In this document: positions 26,691-36,320 of the stretch, piece by piece | Layout: each line of letters starts with the position of its first letter | Numbering within the stretch: position 1 is the stretch's first letter | Source of the DNA: Thermoleophilia bacterium | GTDB lineage: Bacteria > Actinomycetota > Thermoleophilia > Gaiellales > F1-60-MAGs149 | DNA: 36,747 nucleotides | NCBI GenBank assembly: GCA_009694475.1 | Contig: SHUX01000009.1 | Location: 1-36,747 of the forward strand | Direction of reading: 5' to 3' | The notes under the pieces: generated by a model | What the model saw: only the letters and a program-made list of their open reading frames with translations | Told to the model about the DNA's origin: nothing | Databases searched by the model: none | Translations under genes and position numbers: made by a program

Positions 26691-27872
26691 ATGCTGCTTG
26701 CCCTGCTTCTGCCTCGTCTCGCGCTGAGCGTTGCGCTCGCTGCACAGCCACAGCCGCAGGACGTGCCGGTTGCGGTCGGCCCTCAGCCCTTTGGCGAGCC
26801 CCGCATTGGTCTGCCCTCGGCAATTGCCGAGGCCAGCGGTGTCCGCAGTGGCATGCGGCTTGGCGTGGCACTCACGCTCTGCCCCGAACTCGTGCTCGTG
26901 CCGCCCGACCCGGTCGGGGTGCAGTTGCGGGCGGCTCAACTAATCCGCGAGATAGCCGCAATGGGTCTCCCGGTTGAGGAAATCGGAAGCGGTCGTGCGC
27001 TGGTTGCTGCCGAGCCCGGCCTGCGCCTCTATGGCGGACCCCAACGACTCCTCCAACGCCTGCACGATGTTGCCCCCGACGAGGCGCTCCAGATTGGCGC
27101 GGCACCCTCGCGGTTTTCCGCCCTGATGGCGGCCCGACTGGCGCGTCATCGACCACGCATCTTCGGGCACGACGATGTACAGGAGATGATCGCGCCATTG
27201 TCCGTTGTCCTGCTTCACGAGGATGGCGGTACACCGGCAGAGATCTGTGAGGCGCTGAACCTAGTTGGCATCGATCGGCTTGGTGGGCTGGCGTCGCTCA
27301 ATCGGCTGGCAGTCCGTGATCGCTTTGGCCCAGAGGGCGTACGTGCCTGGCAGATGGCGCGAGGTGAGGACGGTGATGCGATTACCCCAAACAAGCCCCC
27401 ACCACTGCTCCGCGCCGAGCTTGTTCCGGGCGAGCCGATCGCCACCGACCACGCCCTCGAACAGGCCATCGACCTGCTCCTGACGCGTCTCCTCAAAGAC
27501 CCTACGCGCGGGACGGCCGAGCCGCGCCTCCTGCGATTGCAGGCGTACCTAGTCACGGGCGAGTCCTGGATCTGTGAGGCACCCTTACGCGAGCCGTGCG
27601 GCAACCAGCAGCGGCTGTTCTTAGCGCTCTTACCGAAGGCGCGCCGGCTACCCGCCCCCGCCGAACGAATCGCGATCAGCTTTGCCGAGCTGGCCCCAGG
27701 TGCTCACCAGCTGGCACTACTCGACCCGGCTGGCGTCGAGCGCGAGCAGCGCCTTGACGGTGCAGCGGCACAGGTTCGCTCGGCGCTTGGCGCAGCCGCC
27801 CTACTCCGCGTCGTCACGCTCGATCCGACCAGCCGCCTGCCCGAGCGACGCTACGGGTTGACTGCCCGATGA
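26691..27872 (+). CDS. imuB: ImuB-like (catalytically degenerate) Y-family DNA polymerase protein
   Basis: 393 aa; RIGLPSAIAEASGVRSGMRLGVALTLCPELVLVPPDP, IGAAPSRFSALMAARLA, LNRLAVRDRFGPEGVRAWQMARGED; lacks Y-family metal-binding acidic residues at the N-terminus; followed by dnaE2. Confidence 0.85.
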   Translation: MLLALLLPRLALSVALAAQPQPQDVPVAVGPQPFGEPRIGLPSAIAEASGVRSGMRLGVALTLCPELVLVPPDPVGVQLRAAQLIREIAAMGLPVEEIGSGRALVAAEPGLRLYGGPQRLLQRLHDVAPDEALQIGAAPSRFSALMAARLARHRPRIFGHDDVQEMIAPLSVVLLHEDGGTPAEICEALNLVGIDRLGGLASLNRLAVRDRFGPEGVRAWQMARGEDGDAITPNKPPPLLRAELVPGEPIATDHALEQAIDLLLTRLLKDPTRGTAEPRLLRLQAYLVTGESWICEAPLREPCGNQQRLFLALLPKARRLPAPAERIAISFAELAPGAHQLALLDPAGVEREQRLDGAAAQVRSALGAAALLRVVTLDPTSRLPERRYGLTAR

Positions 27873-28123
27873 GCGAACTCCTACGGGGGCTCGCCTCACA
27901 GACACCGAAACGCTGTCGCGTCACACTCGACGAGCGGCAGTACCCGACCAGCGTGGATGGGCGAGAGGTCGTTTGCTTGCGCGAGGAGTGGCGGGTGGAA
28001 GAGGGCTGGTGGAGCACCCCCTACCGGCGACGCTACCTCTCTGTGACACTCGCTGACGGACAGCTGCAGACGATCTTCGAGGATCGCCGCCAGCCCGGCC
28101 AGTGGTGGCGCCATGGGCGCTAG
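27869..28123 (+). CDS. Small protein (84 aa) between imuB and dnaE2; possibly DUF6504-like
   Basis: MSELLRGLASQTPKRCRVTLDERQYPTSVDGREVVCLREEWRVEEGWWSTPYRRRYLSVTLADGQLQTIFEDRRQPGQWWRHGR; ATGA overlap with imuB and 11-bp overlap with dnaE2. Family name from memory, not searched. Confidence 0.75.
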   Translation: MSELLRGLASQTPKRCRVTLDERQYPTSVDGREVVCLREEWRVEEGWWSTPYRRRYLSVTLADGQLQTIFEDRRQPGQWWRHGR

Positions 28124-31100
28124 CACGGCGTACGTCGAACTGCACTGCCACTCAGCCTATTCCTTTCTTGACGGGGTCGCTCAGCCCGACGAGTTGGTCG
28201 ATCGCGCCTGTGCGCTTGGCTACGCCGCACTGGCTTTGACGGACCACGACAACCTCTGTGCTGCGCTGCCGTTCGCCCAGGCGGCACAGGCGGCGGGGCT
28301 ACAGGCCATCACCGGCTGCGAATTGACCGTTAAGGATGCCGGCCAGGTCTTCCACCTCGTGCTGCTTACCGAGACGCGGGCGGGCTACACGAACCTCTGT
28401 CGGTTGATCACCGCCGCCCACGCCGGCACGCGACGAGTAGACGGCACGACTGAACACCAGCCGAGCATCGCTCTACAGCACGTCTTGGAACACGCCGAGG
28501 GGCTCACCTGTCTGACCGGCTGTTCACGGCAGGGAGTATTGGCTGCAGGCGACGACTCGACTGTACGCCGTCGCCGCGACCTGCTGTTGGAGGCCTTCTC
28601 GACGCGGCTCGCAATCGAATTACAGCGTCCGTTTCATGAGGGTGCCGAGCCTGCGCTACGTCGCCTCTGTCGATTGGCGCACGAGCGTCAGATTCCCCTC
28701 GTTGCAACCAACAACGTGCACCTCCACCTGCGTCGACGCGGCCCGCTGCAAGACGTGCTGGTGGCAATCCGGCATCACCTCGCACTTGATGCCTGCAGGA
28801 GTGCTCTGCGCGGCAATCGTGAGCACGTGCTCAAGTCTCCGGCCGAGATGACACGACTCTTCGCCGAGCTACCCGAGGCAATAGTCGAGACCGGTCAGAT
28901 TGCCGAGCGCTGCCAATTTGACCTGACCGAGAGCCTTGGCTATCAGCCGCCAGTACGACCGGGCAACGCCGATCACGAGCTTGCTGACTTTTGTCGAACA
29001 CACCTCGACAGTCGCTACAACCGATCCTCGCCCTGGCGCCAGCAGGCAGAAGAGCGGCTGGAAACCGAGCTCGCACTGATTCGGCACCATCGGCTCGCAG
29101 GCTTCTTTCTACTGCATCAAGAGATTCTCGAGCTCGCACGCGACGTCGCCCTAGAACTGCGGGGAAGCGATGCCGCACGCAACGTCTTGCCACCTGGCCG
29201 CGGGCGCGGGTCGAGCGTTGGCTCAATCGTCTGCTACCTGACGGGTCTCTCGCATATTGATCCTGTCGCTGGCCGACTCTCACTCGGGCGGTTTCTCAAC
29301 GAAGAACTAGCCTCGACGCCCGATATTGATCTGGACTTTCCGCGTGATATCCGGGCCGAACTGATCCGTCGGATTCACCTGCGCTTTGGTCCACAGCAGG
29401 CGGCCTTGGTTGGTGCCTTCTCGACGTATCGCACACGTGGTGCAATCCGCGAGATCGGTAAGGCGCTGGCATTGCCAACAGGCGACATCGCCCGGCTCGC
29501 TGCCGCCTCCGATAGCTGGCGTGCCGAGTCGGTTGGTGACGAGCTGCGTCGCGTACCTAGTCTGCGCGATCGCGCTAACGACCCACGCCTACGACTGCTC
29601 GTAGCACTCTGTCGTCAAATCAATGGCCTGCCGCGCCATCTCTCGCAGCACCCCGGCGGCATGATTGTCTCGGACCGACCACTCAGTGAATTGGTGCCAT
29701 TGCAACCCGCGGCAATGGCGGGACGCACGATCTGCCAATGGGACAAGGACGCCTGTGCCGATGCCGGCTTTCTCAAGATCGACCTGCTCGGACTCGGCAT
29801 GCTCAGCGCCGTCGAACGCTGCGTCAGCGAGATCCACCGCAGCACCGGCAAGACGGTCGACCTCTCGCGCGTGCCCCTCGACGATGCCGAGGTCTATGCC
29901 GAGATCCAAGACGCAGATACAGTCGGGGTCTTCCAAATCGAATCACGCGCGCAGATGCAGACGTTACTGCGTGTCCAGCCGACCTGCCTTGACGACCTCG
30001 TCGTCGAGGTCGCACTCGTTCGACCAGGGCCGATTCAAGGTGGCGCAGTCAATCCCTACATTCAGCGACGACTGGCGCGGCGGGCTGACCCAACGGTGCC
30101 GATTCCCTACGAGCATCCCCTGCTCGAGGAAGCGCTGCATGAGACGCTCGGCGTAATCATCTTTCAAGACCAGGTGCTGACGGTCGCGCAGGCCTTGGCA
30201 GGCTTTACGCCAGGCCAGGCGGAGGCGTTGCGGCGCGCAATGAGTCGCCGTCGTAGTCGCGCGGCAATCGAGGCGCAATGGCTGGCCTTCGCTGAGGGAG
30301 CGTCCGAGCGTGGTGTGGCTGAGCACATTGCCCAACGTGTCTTCCAGCAGATTATTGCCTTCTCGGCCTTTGGCTTTCCAAAATCCCATGCCGCAGCCTT
30401 CGCTCTGCTCGCCTATCAGACTGCGTGGCTACGCCACCACTACCCCGCCGCTTTCCTCTGCGCCCTCCTGATGGAGCAGCCAATGGGCTTCTATCCACCC
30501 GCCACATTGATCCGCGACGCCGAGCACCGTGCAGTAACAGTGCGACAGGTCGACCTTGAGCATTCACGGGTAGAGGCCAGTTGTGAAGGCCCGTCGGCAG
30601 TGCGGCTGGGCTTTCGTCAGGTGATCGGGCTCGGTGCGAGGGATGCCGAGAAGCTCGTCGCAGAACGCCATGCGCGCGGACCTTTTCGCACGGTTGGCGA
30701 ACTCGCCAATCGTCTCGATCTGCCGACCACACAACTACAGCGACTAATTGCGGCGGGAGCCTGTGACCGCCTCGGCCCGCGCCGGCAATTGCTCTGGGAA
30801 CTCGGCCTGGCAACGCGACCACAGACCAGTTCTACTGGGCGACAGTTGGCTTTCGATCTGCAACTCGGTGAGGTACCACAGACGCTGCCCGTGCCGAATG
30901 CCTGGGAACTCTTGGTGGCCGACTACGCCACGACGGGTGTCTCGGTACGGGAGCACCCGATCGCCCAGCTTCGTCTGGGGCTCCACGACGTTATCAGCAG
31001 TGCACAACTTAAACAGTTGCCGGACGGAACGCCAATCACAATTCCCGGGTTGGCAGTGGCGCGCCAACGCCCCAGCAGCGCCAAAGGCATCGTGTTCCTC

Positions 31101-31364
31101 CTCGCCGAGGACGAGTACGGGCTCTTCAACCTGGTGATTATGCCCACTGTCTACGACAAGTACCGACTACTCGTGCGCAGTGAGCCCCTGCTACTGGTGG
31201 AAGGTACACTCGAGCAGCGCGATCGCCAACTCAACATTCGCGTCACGCACCTCAGCGCGCTCGGCACGCCCGAGCGCCAAGTGCTTCGCCAGCAGCAGGG
31301 CACGACGCTACGCGCTGTCGCGCCAGCACCGCAACACTTCTCACAGGGCCGCCGCCGTGCTTAG
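28113..31364 (+). CDS. dnaE2: Error-prone DNA polymerase III alpha subunit DnaE2
   Basis: 1083 aa; PHP domain VELHCHSAYSFLDGVAQPDELV, polymerase motif TPDIDLDFPRDIRAELI, GVFQIESRAQMQ, VEVALVRPGPIQGGAVNPYI; cassette with imuB. Confidence 0.94.
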   Translation: MGASTAYVELHCHSAYSFLDGVAQPDELVDRACALGYAALALTDHDNLCAALPFAQAAQAAGLQAITGCELTVKDAGQVFHLVLLTETRAGYTNLCRLITAAHAGTRRVDGTTEHQPSIALQHVLEHAEGLTCLTGCSRQGVLAAGDDSTVRRRRDLLLEAFSTRLAIELQRPFHEGAEPALRRLCRLAHERQIPLVATNNVHLHLRRRGPLQDVLVAIRHHLALDACRSALRGNREHVLKSPAEMTRLFAELPEAIVETGQIAERCQFDLTESLGYQPPVRPGNADHELADFCRTHLDSRYNRSSPWRQQAEERLETELALIRHHRLAGFFLLHQEILELARDVALELRGSDAARNVLPPGRGRGSSVGSIVCYLTGLSHIDPVAGRLSLGRFLNEELASTPDIDLDFPRDIRAELIRRIHLRFGPQQAALVGAFSTYRTRGAIREIGKALALPTGDIARLAAASDSWRAESVGDELRRVPSLRDRANDPRLRLLVALCRQINGLPRHLSQHPGGMIVSDRPLSELVPLQPAAMAGRTICQWDKDACADAGFLKIDLLGLGMLSAVERCVSEIHRSTGKTVDLSRVPLDDAEVYAEIQDADTVGVFQIESRAQMQTLLRVQPTCLDDLVVEVALVRPGPIQGGAVNPYIQRRLARRADPTVPIPYEHPLLEEALHETLGVIIFQDQVLTVAQALAGFTPGQAEALRRAMSRRRSRAAIEAQWLAFAEGASERGVAEHIAQRVFQQIIAFSAFGFPKSHAAAFALLAYQTAWLRHHYPAAFLCALLMEQPMGFYPPATLIRDAEHRAVTVRQVDLEHSRVEASCEGPSAVRLGFRQVIGLGARDAEKLVAERHARGPFRTVGELANRLDLPTTQLQRLIAAGACDRLGPRRQLLWELGLATRPQTSSTGRQLAFDLQLGEVPQTLPVPNAWELLVADYATTGVSVREHPIAQLRLGLHDVISSAQLKQLPDGTPITIPGLAVARQRPSSAKGIVFLLAEDEYGLFNLVIMPTVYDKYRLLVRSEPLLLVEGTLEQRDRQLNIRVTHLSALGTPERQVLRQQQGTTLRAVAPAPQHFSQGRRRA

Positions 31365-31376
31365 CGCTAGCGCGGG

Positions 31377-33041
31377 CTACGCACCGCGGTAGACCAAGAC
31401 CGGCATACCGATCTCGGTGAAGGCGTACACGACAGCCGCATCGACAGCCGGGACTCGGACGCAGCCGTGAGAGGCCGCATACTCGGGCACATATGGATAC
31501 TCGTGCAACGCAAAACCCTCAAAGAAATACGAGGCATAGGGCAAGAAGGCCTTGAAGGGCTTCGACCAACTCAGCAGCTCCTTGCGCTGCACCGTGAAAG
31601 CACCCGTTGGTGTGTTGCCGGTCGCGCCGCTGGAGATATGAATCACACGCTCTACAACACCCCCCTTCCGAACCAGCATGAGGACCTGTCGGTCGATGTC
31701 GATCTCGACGTGTGCAGGCAGGCCTGGCTGCCGGGCGACTGGTAGCTCGGCGCGCATCAGCAGCGCGAGCGTCTCTGCGCCAGTGACCCCGGAGCGCTCC
31801 GCGCCGAGCGCGCCCTGGAAACCGACGACTGCCTGCCACGTCGTGTCGTCGTACATACCGTTGACGAACTTCGGCTGCAGATAGTGGAGGCGGGCGAGCG
31901 TCGTCTGGAGGGCGCGTACTCCCGGACCCTGGTCACCGGGTTGGAAACCGCCGGGAAACTCCGACGCGGGGTTGCGACCGGCCTGGGCGCGGAACCCGAT
32001 CGCTAAATACCCCGTGGCGATCGAGCGACCCCACGGGGTCAGCTTTTTGCGACCCTCTGCCATGGCGTCGCGCGTCGGCGTATCCCACCCCGCGATGACC
32101 GCGCCGTCGCCGCCGTCAAGTACGGTCCAACCCGTCACCCAGTCCAGTAGCCCCTCCGCCCAGCGCATGGAGTCGGTCGTCGTGCGCGTCTCTCGGTATA
32201 ACCGTCCGAACGATGTCGGCCCTGATCGTTTAACACTGAACGTGGTCTGCACGCGCGCGACGTCGTCGAACACCACGGGTACCACGTCCGTCGCGGCAGC
32301 GAGCGACGTACGCAGGATCTTCTGATTCGTGCGCTTGAACCGGAATTGCCCGTCGGAACGAGGATGCACGCCATAGATGAGGTTGTCGTCTCCAAGCGCC
32401 GCCGTCCAATTGAGCGCGACGGAGCGCGAGCGCTCTGGCAGATTGATCATGATCGGCGTCGTAACTCCTGCCGCGCGCAACGCCGCGACGTTGAGCGACT
32501 GCGACCAGATCCAGGCCTCTGTGTCGCCGCATTTCAGGCTGGCGGTAAACCTGCCGCAGTCCGGATCCACCGCCGGCAGATACCAGACGTTGTCTTTGTC
32601 AGGGAACCAACCTGCGAGCGTCGTGAGCCATGGAGACTGATCTCCGACGGTGACCGGAACGTTGGCAAGAAGCAGAATCAAGCCGCGTGATTTTGCAACA
32701 CGCTGGAGTTTCTGAAACGCACGGCGATGCGCGTCGTCGTTCGCCGCGCTGGAAACGTTGACTCGAACGACGTTCGCACCGAGACGCGCAATCTGCTTGA
32801 ACGCATTGGGCGCCGAACTGATATCGGGAGCCCCTAGCGGAGTTACAGCGTCATTGGGCACGAAACGGGTCCCACCCCAGGCCACACCGCGCACCTTCAT
32901 CTCGTGATCCGTGGCATTGAGGATTCGATTACCCGAAACCTGCGCGGGCCGGGCCTGCGCAACAGCGACCATGCCCATCAGCGCGGTAAGCGCAAGCAGA
33001 ATGGTCGCCGTGGGTCTGACCAGCGAGGAAATCGCCAACAC
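31377..33041 (-). CDS. Secreted/anchored three-domain protein: GH5-like (probably non-catalytic) TIM-barrel + peptidoglycan-binding domain + YkuD L,D-transpeptidase
   Basis: 554 aa, N-terminal hydrophobic signal; KVRGVAWGGTRF...IARLGANVVRVNVS...LRAAGVTTPIMINLPE...DDNLIYGVHP (GH5-like layout); QPGDQGPGVRALQTTLARLHYL...FVNGMYDDTTWQAVVGFQ (PG-binding); VEIDIDRQVLMLV...SGATGNTPTGAFTV...FALHEYPYVPEYAASHGCVRVP (YkuD). Confidence 0.88.
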   Translation of the reverse strand: MLAISSLVRPTATILLALTALMGMVAVAQARPAQVSGNRILNATDHEMKVRGVAWGGTRFVPNDAVTPLGAPDISSAPNAFKQIARLGANVVRVNVSSAANDDAHRRAFQKLQRVAKSRGLILLLANVPVTVGDQSPWLTTLAGWFPDKDNVWYLPAVDPDCGRFTASLKCGDTEAWIWSQSLNVAALRAAGVTTPIMINLPERSRSVALNWTAALGDDNLIYGVHPRSDGQFRFKRTNQKILRTSLAAATDVVPVVFDDVARVQTTFSVKRSGPTSFGRLYRETRTTTDSMRWAEGLLDWVTGWTVLDGGDGAVIAGWDTPTRDAMAEGRKKLTPWGRSIATGYLAIGFRAQAGRNPASEFPGGFQPGDQGPGVRALQTTLARLHYLQPKFVNGMYDDTTWQAVVGFQGALGAERSGVTGAETLALLMRAELPVARQPGLPAHVEIDIDRQVLMLVRKGGVVERVIHISSGATGNTPTGAFTVQRKELLSWSKPFKAFLPYASYFFEGFALHEYPYVPEYAASHGCVRVPAVDAAVVYAFTEIGMPVLVYRGA

Positions 33042-33095
33042 GTCATGAGATTCGATCTCCGCATGCTGTCTCCTGCCTGAGGCTATTCTTTGCTG

Positions 33096-34196
33096 GTGAA
33101 AAGCTCTATCGCGATCCTTGCTGCCGTCTTAAGTTTGATCGGTGCTGTGGACGGTGCCGGCGCAGCTGCCCTCGGTGTGACCGCAGACGGCGGCCTTAGC
33201 GCGGGACAGGCCACAAGCAACGCCGCTGCAGCAACCGCACTCCATCTGACGTGGTCCCGCGTTGACGTCTCCTGGCCCGTCGTAGCACCGACACAACCCA
33301 ATAACGCGCGTCTCCCAACCAGCGGCGGGTACGTCTGGTCGAGCATCGACACTCAACTCGCGGCTGCAGCGTCGCTGGGTCCCGGCACACAGGTGCTTTT
33401 CTCAGTCAGCGGAACGCCGTACTGGGCGCGTGCGGACAACGGCGCAGGCGGTTTGCCGGACGACTCATCGTGGACTCCTAGGCGCACTGCGTGGCAGAAT
33501 TTTATTGCGGCTCTGGCGACGCGCTACAACGGAAGATTCGCCGCACTCGAGGTCTGGCCACAGCCGAACCTGCTGACGTCCTTGCGCCCGCAACGAATCG
33601 CAGGCCGCCTCGTGGCGCCCGGCTTTCTTAAGGTGTTGACAAAACGTGCGACGCTCGAAGTCCGCAAACTGTCTGCGACCGTACCGATCGTCACCGGCGG
33701 CCTCGCCCGTACAGATCCCACCAGCACCTCCGACACCCCGTCGCTGACGTTTTTGCGCGCGATGGGAAGAACGCGCATGGCGTTTGATGCGATCGGACTA
33801 CGTCTCGTTCCGCCGAACGGCCTCGAGGGACTGAGCGATCCCACGAATCTTTCGCTGACCGACTCAGCCGGCATTGTCGCCGCGGTCGATAGTTATTGGC
33901 CGAACGCGGGCACGAGAATTTGGCTGACCGGCTACGGCGTACTCTCGGGACCAGCAGAAGCCGGCTTGAGTTACGCCACACAGAGCGTTGGCATCACCAG
34001 TCTGCTGTCGGCCAGCGCGAACCCGCGCATCGACGTCGCGCTCTGGAATAGCCTCGCGAATACGACTGCCAATCCCTACGGCGGCATTTTGTTGGCGCCC
34101 ACGGTCAACCCCTTTGTTGCCCCAACCGCAGGCGCCGATCCTGCCTGGGATACCTGGACGACGATCGTGCCAGTTCCGGCAACGCCCCCGGCCTAG
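33096..34196 (+). CDS. Secreted glycoside-hydrolase-fold protein (GH5/GH39-like), predicted catalytically inactive
   Basis: Signal peptide; TWSRVDVSWPVVAPT, AALATRYNGRFAALEVWPQPNL (position of the NEP motif), GTRIWLTGYGVLSGP (position of the TE.G motif). GTG start 33096; the ORF track begins with TTG at 33090. Confidence 0.75.
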   Translation: MKSSIAILAAVLSLIGAVDGAGAAALGVTADGGLSAGQATSNAAAATALHLTWSRVDVSWPVVAPTQPNNARLPTSGGYVWSSIDTQLAAAASLGPGTQVLFSVSGTPYWARADNGAGGLPDDSSWTPRRTAWQNFIAALATRYNGRFAALEVWPQPNLLTSLRPQRIAGRLVAPGFLKVLTKRATLEVRKLSATVPIVTGGLARTDPTSTSDTPSLTFLRAMGRTRMAFDAIGLRLVPPNGLEGLSDPTNLSLTDSAGIVAAVDSYWPNAGTRIWLTGYGVLSGPAEAGLSYATQSVGITSLLSASANPRIDVALWNSLANTTANPYGGILLAPTVNPFVAPTAGADPAWDTWTTIVPVPATPPA

Positions 34197-35198: not shown

Positions 35199-35876
35199 TC
35201 AGGTCTTGACATCACGCACGAGCAGGCGCTCGGTCAACTCGGCGCTGAGCCCGGCAAGCTGGGCCAACTCGTCGAGGCCTTGCTCACGACGCTCGGTGTT
35301 GCGGGAGCGCAGCGCAGGTGCGAGCACTTGATCCAGCAGTCCGGCAACGCGCTGAACACCCGTATAGAGCTGACGGACGTGGCGCGGTCCCAGTCCGAAC
35401 TCCGCCATCCGCTGGCAGATCTTGATGATTTCGACTTCGCTCTCTCCATACAGCCCATCCTGATCGGACGTGACGATGCCGTAGGACTGCAACTCGATAA
35501 AGGCAACATCGTCGAGGCCTGTCTCGCGCAGCAATTCGGAACGGTCGACACGACGGGCATCAACCGCAACTTCGGTGCGCATCGAACGGCGTGCTTTGCG
35601 CTCACGACTGCGGGCCACCGTACCGCTGCCTTCGATCTCCTGGCGGATCACCTTGAGTGGCAGAAACTCGTCACGCTGAAGCTGCAAGATGGTTCGCAGA
35701 CGCTCAATATCCTCGCGTCGATAGAGACGGTAGCCACCCTGTGTGCGGAGTGGGTTGAGGAGCTTCTGCTCTTCGAGATAGCGAATCTTCGAGATCGAGA
35801 CGTCATTGAACTCGGACTTCAGTTCCTTACAGACCGCACCAATCGTCAACGGCTTCTCTTCACTGCGGGTCGCCAT
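35199..35876 (-). CDS. MerR family transcriptional regulator, FtsR (Rv1828)-like
   Basis: TIGAVCKELKSEFNDVSISKIRYLEEQKLLNPLRTQGGYRLYRREDIERLRTILQLQRDEFLPLKVIRQEI; next to a GarA-like FHA gene, as in mycobacteria. Confidence 0.88.
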   Translation of the reverse strand: MATRSEEKPLTIGAVCKELKSEFNDVSISKIRYLEEQKLLNPLRTQGGYRLYRREDIERLRTILQLQRDEFLPLKVIRQEIEGSGTVARSRERKARRSMRTEVAVDARRVDRSELLRETGLDDVAFIELQSYGIVTSDQDGLYGESEVEIIKICQRMAEFGLGPRHVRQLYTGVQRVAGLLDQVLAPALRSRNTERREQGLDELAQLAGLSAELTERLLVRDVKT

Positions 35877-35882
35877 AGCCGT

Positions 35883-36320
35883 CTACTCGAGGTACGTCAG
35901 TTTGAATTTGCCGATCTGGACCTCATCGCCGTCGCGGAGCCGCGTCCGCTCAATGCGCCGGTGATTGACATACGTCCCGTTGAGACTGGCGAGATCAACC
36001 AAATAGTGCCCGTCGGCCTCTGCCTCAATCGCAGCATGACGGCGGGAGACCGTCACGTCATCAAGCAGAATCGAAGCCTCACCAGCGCGGCCAATTGTCT
36101 CACGCGGCTGCAAGAGCGGGATGTGTTCTCCCGCCCGGCCACCTGTGCGAATGACGACCGCCGGTAGCTGATGGCCTTGCGTCGCAGGAACCTCCTGCGT
36201 ATCGGTATCACCTGTATAGGTGGCCGTGTCATCCGCGGCGTCAGGGTCGTGCAGCGTGCCGCACTTCGCACAGTAGTGCGCAGTCGCTGCATTCCGATAT
36301 CCGCATTCCTGACAAAACAT
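35883..36320 (-). CDS. FHA domain protein, GarA/OdhI-like, with N-terminal zinc ribbon
   Basis: MFCQECGYRNAATAHYCAKCG zinc ribbon; FHA core GRAGEASILLDDVTVSRRHAAIEAEADGHYLVDLASLNGTYVNHRRI...DGDEVQIGKFKLTYLE. Confidence 0.92.
   Translation of the reverse strand: MFCQECGYRNAATAHYCAKCGTLHDPDAADDTATYTGDTDTQEVPATQGHQLPAVVIRTGGRAGEHIPLLQPRETIGRAGEASILLDDVTVSRRHAAIEAEADGHYLVDLASLNGTYVNHRRIERTRLRDGDEVQIGKFKLTYLE

Follow-up and report, generated by a model that had tools for sequence, protein, structure and literature searches.

The closest solved relative of the protein described here is PslG of Pseudomonas aeruginosa, a hydrolase of clan GH-A that is usually filed in family GH39. Its key hydrolytic residues are E165 and E276, and an E165Q,E276Q double mutant fails to complement (PMC9075953). 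Glycosidase folds that lost catalysis have been described as well. GH5_30 and the Xanthomonas CelXoB subgroup are clan GH-A barrels with lineage-wide catalytic loss and long branches (Aspeborg et al., 2012; PMC3526467), while HPSE2 is a heparanase pseudoenzyme that arose by duplication of an active retaining glycosidase, coexists with the active enzyme and is proposed to counteract HPSE1 (PMC12406646). Given the GH5_30 and HPSE2 precedents, the protein encoded in the window (the whole stretch of 36,747 nt analyzed in this study) joins an already known kind, the non-catalytic proteins with a glycosidase fold, but its partner is unusual. It differs from GH5_30 and CelXoB, which belong to GH5 and have expansin and CBM63 as partner modules, and from HPSE2, which is an animal protein of a different family.

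The features of the locus are listed in Table 1. The ORF is intact in every orthologue of the disarmed protein (14 copies, 13 species), and all 14 aligned orthologue starts show, by inspection, a signal-peptide-like N-terminus. A TATTCT-type −10-like hexamer was likewise recognized by inspection before the GTG in most orthologues across the genus. The position of this box so near the GTG suggests a leaderless transcript of the pseudo-glycosidase gene.

Table 1. Positions in the window of the pseudo-glycosidase gene, its catalytic-site motifs and the divergent partner gene.
Feature	Position	Strand	Remarks
TATTCT, −10-like hexamer	33084..33089	+	6 nt 5' of GTG; by inspection
Secreted clan GH-A-like pseudo-glycosidase, CDS	33096..34196	+	366 aa + stop; GTG start; ORF intact
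Signal-peptide-like N-terminus	33096..33170	+	~25 aa; AxA-type site at end; by inspection
Strand-4 motif EVWPQPNL (acid/base site)	33549..33572	+	ETWNEPN in active paralogues
Gln156 codon CAG	33561..33563	+	Replaces acid/base Glu; Q/S/N/A across genus
Strand-6 motif GLRLVP	33795..33812	+	Replaces (S/A)xHPYN
Strand-7 motif IWLTGYGV	33918..33941	+	IWVTEFGW in active paralogues
Gly279 codon GGC	33930..33932	+	Replaces nucleophile Glu
Divergent partner gene	31377..33041	−	GH5-like domain, PG_binding_1, YkuD L,D-transpeptidase
YkuD L,D-transpeptidase domain of partner	31392-31715	−	HGCVR motif intact
PG_binding_1 domain of partner	31758-31931	−	
GH5-like N-terminal domain of transpeptidase	31962..32954	−	VDP for NEP, FDD for xEF; motif sites by inspection

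The AlphaFold2 model of the window protein (pTM 0.82, pLDDT 78.5) shows a TIM barrel whose eight strands are ordered. Foldseek ranked PslG as the best solved match (5bx9, E 1e-13) ahead of further barrels of clan GH-A, and the matches include barrels of GH39, GH1, GH10 and GH5; by model and search, the protein has the clan GH-A (beta/alpha)8 barrel fold. Taken alone, its sequence yielded no significant family in Pfam, NCBIfam and single-sequence PDB searches, and the single-sequence PDB match in which VWNEPNL of PslG aligns with VWPQPNL is weak (E 0.07). In sequence profiles, the route to PslG is an indirect one via the paralogues. When the 14 orthologues and 16 intact paralogues were compared profile to profile, 341 columns aligned (E 3e-36), and EVWPQPN fell on ETWNEPN, LRLVP on MHPYN and IWLTGYG on IWVTEFG; the paralogue profile reaches PslG at about E 2e-6 to 4e-6. 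In the joint alignment of orthologues and paralogues, 16 of 30 sequences match Glyco_hydro_cc (PF11790). The motif match to glycosidases on which an earlier note on this DNA relied is thus real. Of the two families in the note's GH5/GH39 type, GH39 is the one in which the nearest solved relative, PslG, is usually filed, whereas membership in GH5 was dropped in favor of a PslG-like protein on the profile and Foldseek evidence.

The window protein and PslG share the TIM barrel and the aligned VW(N/P)(E/Q)PNL and IW(S/L)T motifs. PslG, however, is an active hydrolase with both glutamates, which are replaced in the window protein together with the strand-6 motif; identity is only ~20%, and the genomic setting differs from psl. 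The intact Glyco_hydro_cc-like paralogues (on contig C92 in the window's own genome) resemble the window protein in full-length homology (~22-26% identity) and in their signal-peptide-like start, but they keep WNEPN, HPY and TE[FY]G.

In the profile alignment, Q156 and G279 line up with the two catalytic Glu residues, in agreement with the earlier reading of both motifs, their replaced codons and the intact ORF. The two residues that mark a retaining glycosidase of clan GH-A, the Glu of N-E on strand 4 and the nucleophile Glu on strand 7, are both absent from the window protein. Across the orthologue alignment, Glu was found at neither site (0/14 copies in 13/13 examined species of the genus), although orthologues that retain it had been envisaged as a refutation. 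Since the loss is common to all orthologues, a strain-specific lesion or a sequencing error is ruled out. The earlier note had also raised the conservation of the replacing residues, and this applies to Gly but not to Gln. The nucleophile position holds Gly in 13 of 14 copies, with four synonymous codons (GGC, GGT, GGA and GGG) in use for Gly279, and the acid/base position is variable (7 Q, 3 S, 3 N and 1 A). The Asn preceding the acid/base site is always Pro (P-[QSNA], 14/14 copies), and the strand-6 HPY of the enzymes reads RLxP in the orthologues, RLVP in the window protein. The remaining copy at the nucleophile position, from genome G004 (L059, 2246-3361, + strand), reads TDYG; it is the sole orthologue with an acid at this site and has Asn at the acid/base site.

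Because Asn is exchanged for Pro and HPY for RLxP in addition to the loss of both Glu, the whole catalytic apparatus has been exchanged and not two residues alone. The earlier description of two replaced glutamates is correct for these residues, but more than the two has changed. What stays constant across the clade is the lack of Glu, together with the Pro, the Arg and, with one exception, the Gly. In sequence terms, the window protein is a genuine pseudo-glycosidase, and it is presumably unable to act as a classical retaining glycosidase.

The disarmed orthologue is present in all 13 species of the genus that were examined, the window's own included, and intact WNEP/TEFG paralogues occur alongside it in 12 of these 13 genomes; none was found in G008, which is 85% complete. 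In G005, the entire syntenic segment occurs twice in diverged versions (L033 and L050 on contigs C10 and C69), which probably represent two strains mixed in one MAG. In the tree, which was rooted at the midpoint only, the disarmed sequences form one clade with a support of 100/100 and a stem branch of 1.67. No member of this clade was found outside the genus in overlapping samples of 129 order, 399 class and 398 phylum genomes, and a score gap from E 1e-160 to 1e-44 separates it from all other relatives. The relatives outside the genus that were read full-length keep both Glu, with a single exception. This distant protein from another family of the class (L140; G197, 1456-2694, − strand) keeps SEPN but has VTAVG as nucleophile motif, possibly an independent nucleophile loss.

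For the pseudo-glycosidase, dN/dS amounts to 0.14-0.17 in unsaturated pairs (dS < 0.6, window's subclade). Similar values were obtained for the neighboring transpeptidase (0.12-0.13 in unsaturated pairs) and the intact paralogues (0.09-0.20 in mostly saturated pairs); values with dS > 1 are saturated and were not relied on. The pseudo-glycosidase is thus retained under purifying selection, and sequence, tree and dN/dS together show a clade-wide loss of catalytic residues under such selection, as in a pseudoenzyme. The first proposal, that a secreted barrel lost catalysis under constraint, is supported by the dN/dS values as well as by genus-wide fixation, intact ORFs, signal-peptide-like starts and the intact paralogues.

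The pseudo-glycosidase and transpeptidase genes adjoin in divergent orientation, with their neighbors in identical order, in 13/13 species. The GH5 likeness of the N-terminal domain of the transpeptidase is based on a weak profile match to 1bqc and on a Foldseek match (E 6e-9) from an AlphaFold2 model that is weak overall (pLDDT 54) but better in its N-terminal blocks; of the full model, the N-terminal region alone was used. Both Asp of this domain (VDP, FDD) are invariant in the transpeptidase orthologues covering the site. Among 131 genomes, the full-length GH5-like/transpeptidase fusion is restricted to this genus, and no relevant publication on a fusion of a transpeptidase with a glycosidase turned up in a literature search. 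Other genera of the family have an FHA-MerR-APRT(-GNAT) block without the pseudo-glycosidase or transpeptidase gene.

Two further gene groups are found in the window. Genes for an ImuB-like and a DnaE2-like polymerase, with a small ORF between them, lie in a row (26691-31364, + strand), as in actinobacterial mutasome operons, and DnaE2 flanks the pseudo-glycosidase/transpeptidase pair in the orthologous loci wherever the contig reaches. A MerR regulator adjoins a zinc-ribbon FHA protein (35199-36320, − strand) and is conserved with it in the other genera read; the pair resembles the mycobacterial GarA/Rv1828 neighborhood.

Invariant positions make up 48 of 161 residues on the catalytic face versus 21 of the 140 residues that lie in helices or bottom loops (Fisher p 0.0025), a modest enrichment for a face that we labeled from DSSP as strand ends plus beta-alpha loops. 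Catalytic faces are usually conserved anyway. Enzymes and disarmed clade have D31, R55, W60, W110, W154, P157, N158, P165-Q166 and W317 in common. Newly invariant are R112, D114, G116, G118, G119, P155, R167, R171, R205-T206-D207, D213-T214, R236, P239, E244 and N251, a set that lines the catalytic face. Such a combination of kept and new residues speaks more for a re-tooled binding site than for a bare scaffold, although a new reaction could also fit. No surface aromatics of the kind that form lectin platforms were recognized in the window protein, which counts against binding.

On balance, we favor the explanation that the disarmed PslG-like barrel is a secreted, non-cutting carbohydrate binder, perhaps paired with the divergent transpeptidase. 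The loss of the cutting residues, the strong selection and the adjoining cell-wall cross-linking enzyme argue that the protein probably binds a sugar polymer rather than cutting it, and glycan binding appears to be its likeliest function. The glycan would be held by the groove residues W60, W110, W154, N158, W317, R55 and R164-P-Q, with help from a new set comprising R112, D114, the GxGG loop, R167, R171, R205-T-D207, D213-T214, R236, E244 and N251. A candidate ligand is a cell-surface polysaccharide or a peptidoglycan glycan strand, which would be held without hydrolysis. Together with the transpeptidase, the pseudo-glycosidase could act at the envelope as one of a pair, presenting or protecting glycan at cross-linking sites. 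Such joint work is the weaker inference, as divergent adjacency alone is no proof, and the partnership, the most interesting part of the explanation, is also the least proven. A genus-only two-gene envelope module is possible but doubtful; in it, the secreted pseudo-glycosidase and a transpeptidase whose GH5-like domain likewise lacks the Glu pair would, as two disarmed barrels, read wall or surface glycan and direct cross-linking.

The dead barrel might instead be a non-catalytic regulator that binds another protein, for example an active paralogue or the transpeptidase, and acts as an inhibitor or as a competitor for substrate. The intact paralogues that coexist with it in nearly all genomes, the constantly adjoining enzyme gene and the precedent of HPSE2 (PMC12406646) are in line with this, but the genome in which an intact paralogue is missing and the peak of conservation on the sugar-binding face make it unlikely. 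A somewhat poorer prospect is a different chemistry carried out by D114, D207, D213, E244, R112, R205 and R236. These newly invariant residues are charged and located in beta-alpha loops of the catalytic face, a relocated activity is conceivable because several of them are acidic (D114, D207, D213, E244), and alternate mechanisms were raised by the GH5 classification authors for such proteins (PMC3526467); nevertheless, this chemistry fits no known mechanism and the window protein matches no family model. Residual or rescued glycosidase activity, by substrate-assisted catalysis or through an Asp such as that in TDYG, is very unlikely: one orthologue has this Asp, but Gly occupies the nucleophile position in the other 13, an acid is found at the acid/base site in 0/14 copies, and the double E-to-Q PslG already fails to complement (PMC9075953). 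A decaying relic heading for loss, to which the Q/S/N/A drift at the acid/base position and the long stem branch (1.67) might point, is rejected as next to impossible, since dN/dS is well below 1 and the ORF is intact in 13/13 species, and the start and −10-like box are conserved as well.

With glycan binding as the favored function, the protein offers a clear natural example of an enzyme that has probably become a binder. Because there is one clade in 13 species, with co-resident intact paralogues and definable residue swaps, the path from cutting to binding is testable. The case is also a warning, as fold-based annotation would label the window protein a glycosidase. For the organisms themselves, the constant association with a transpeptidase that carries a second glycosidase-like domain hints at an unexplored means of placing cross-links in little-studied envelopes.
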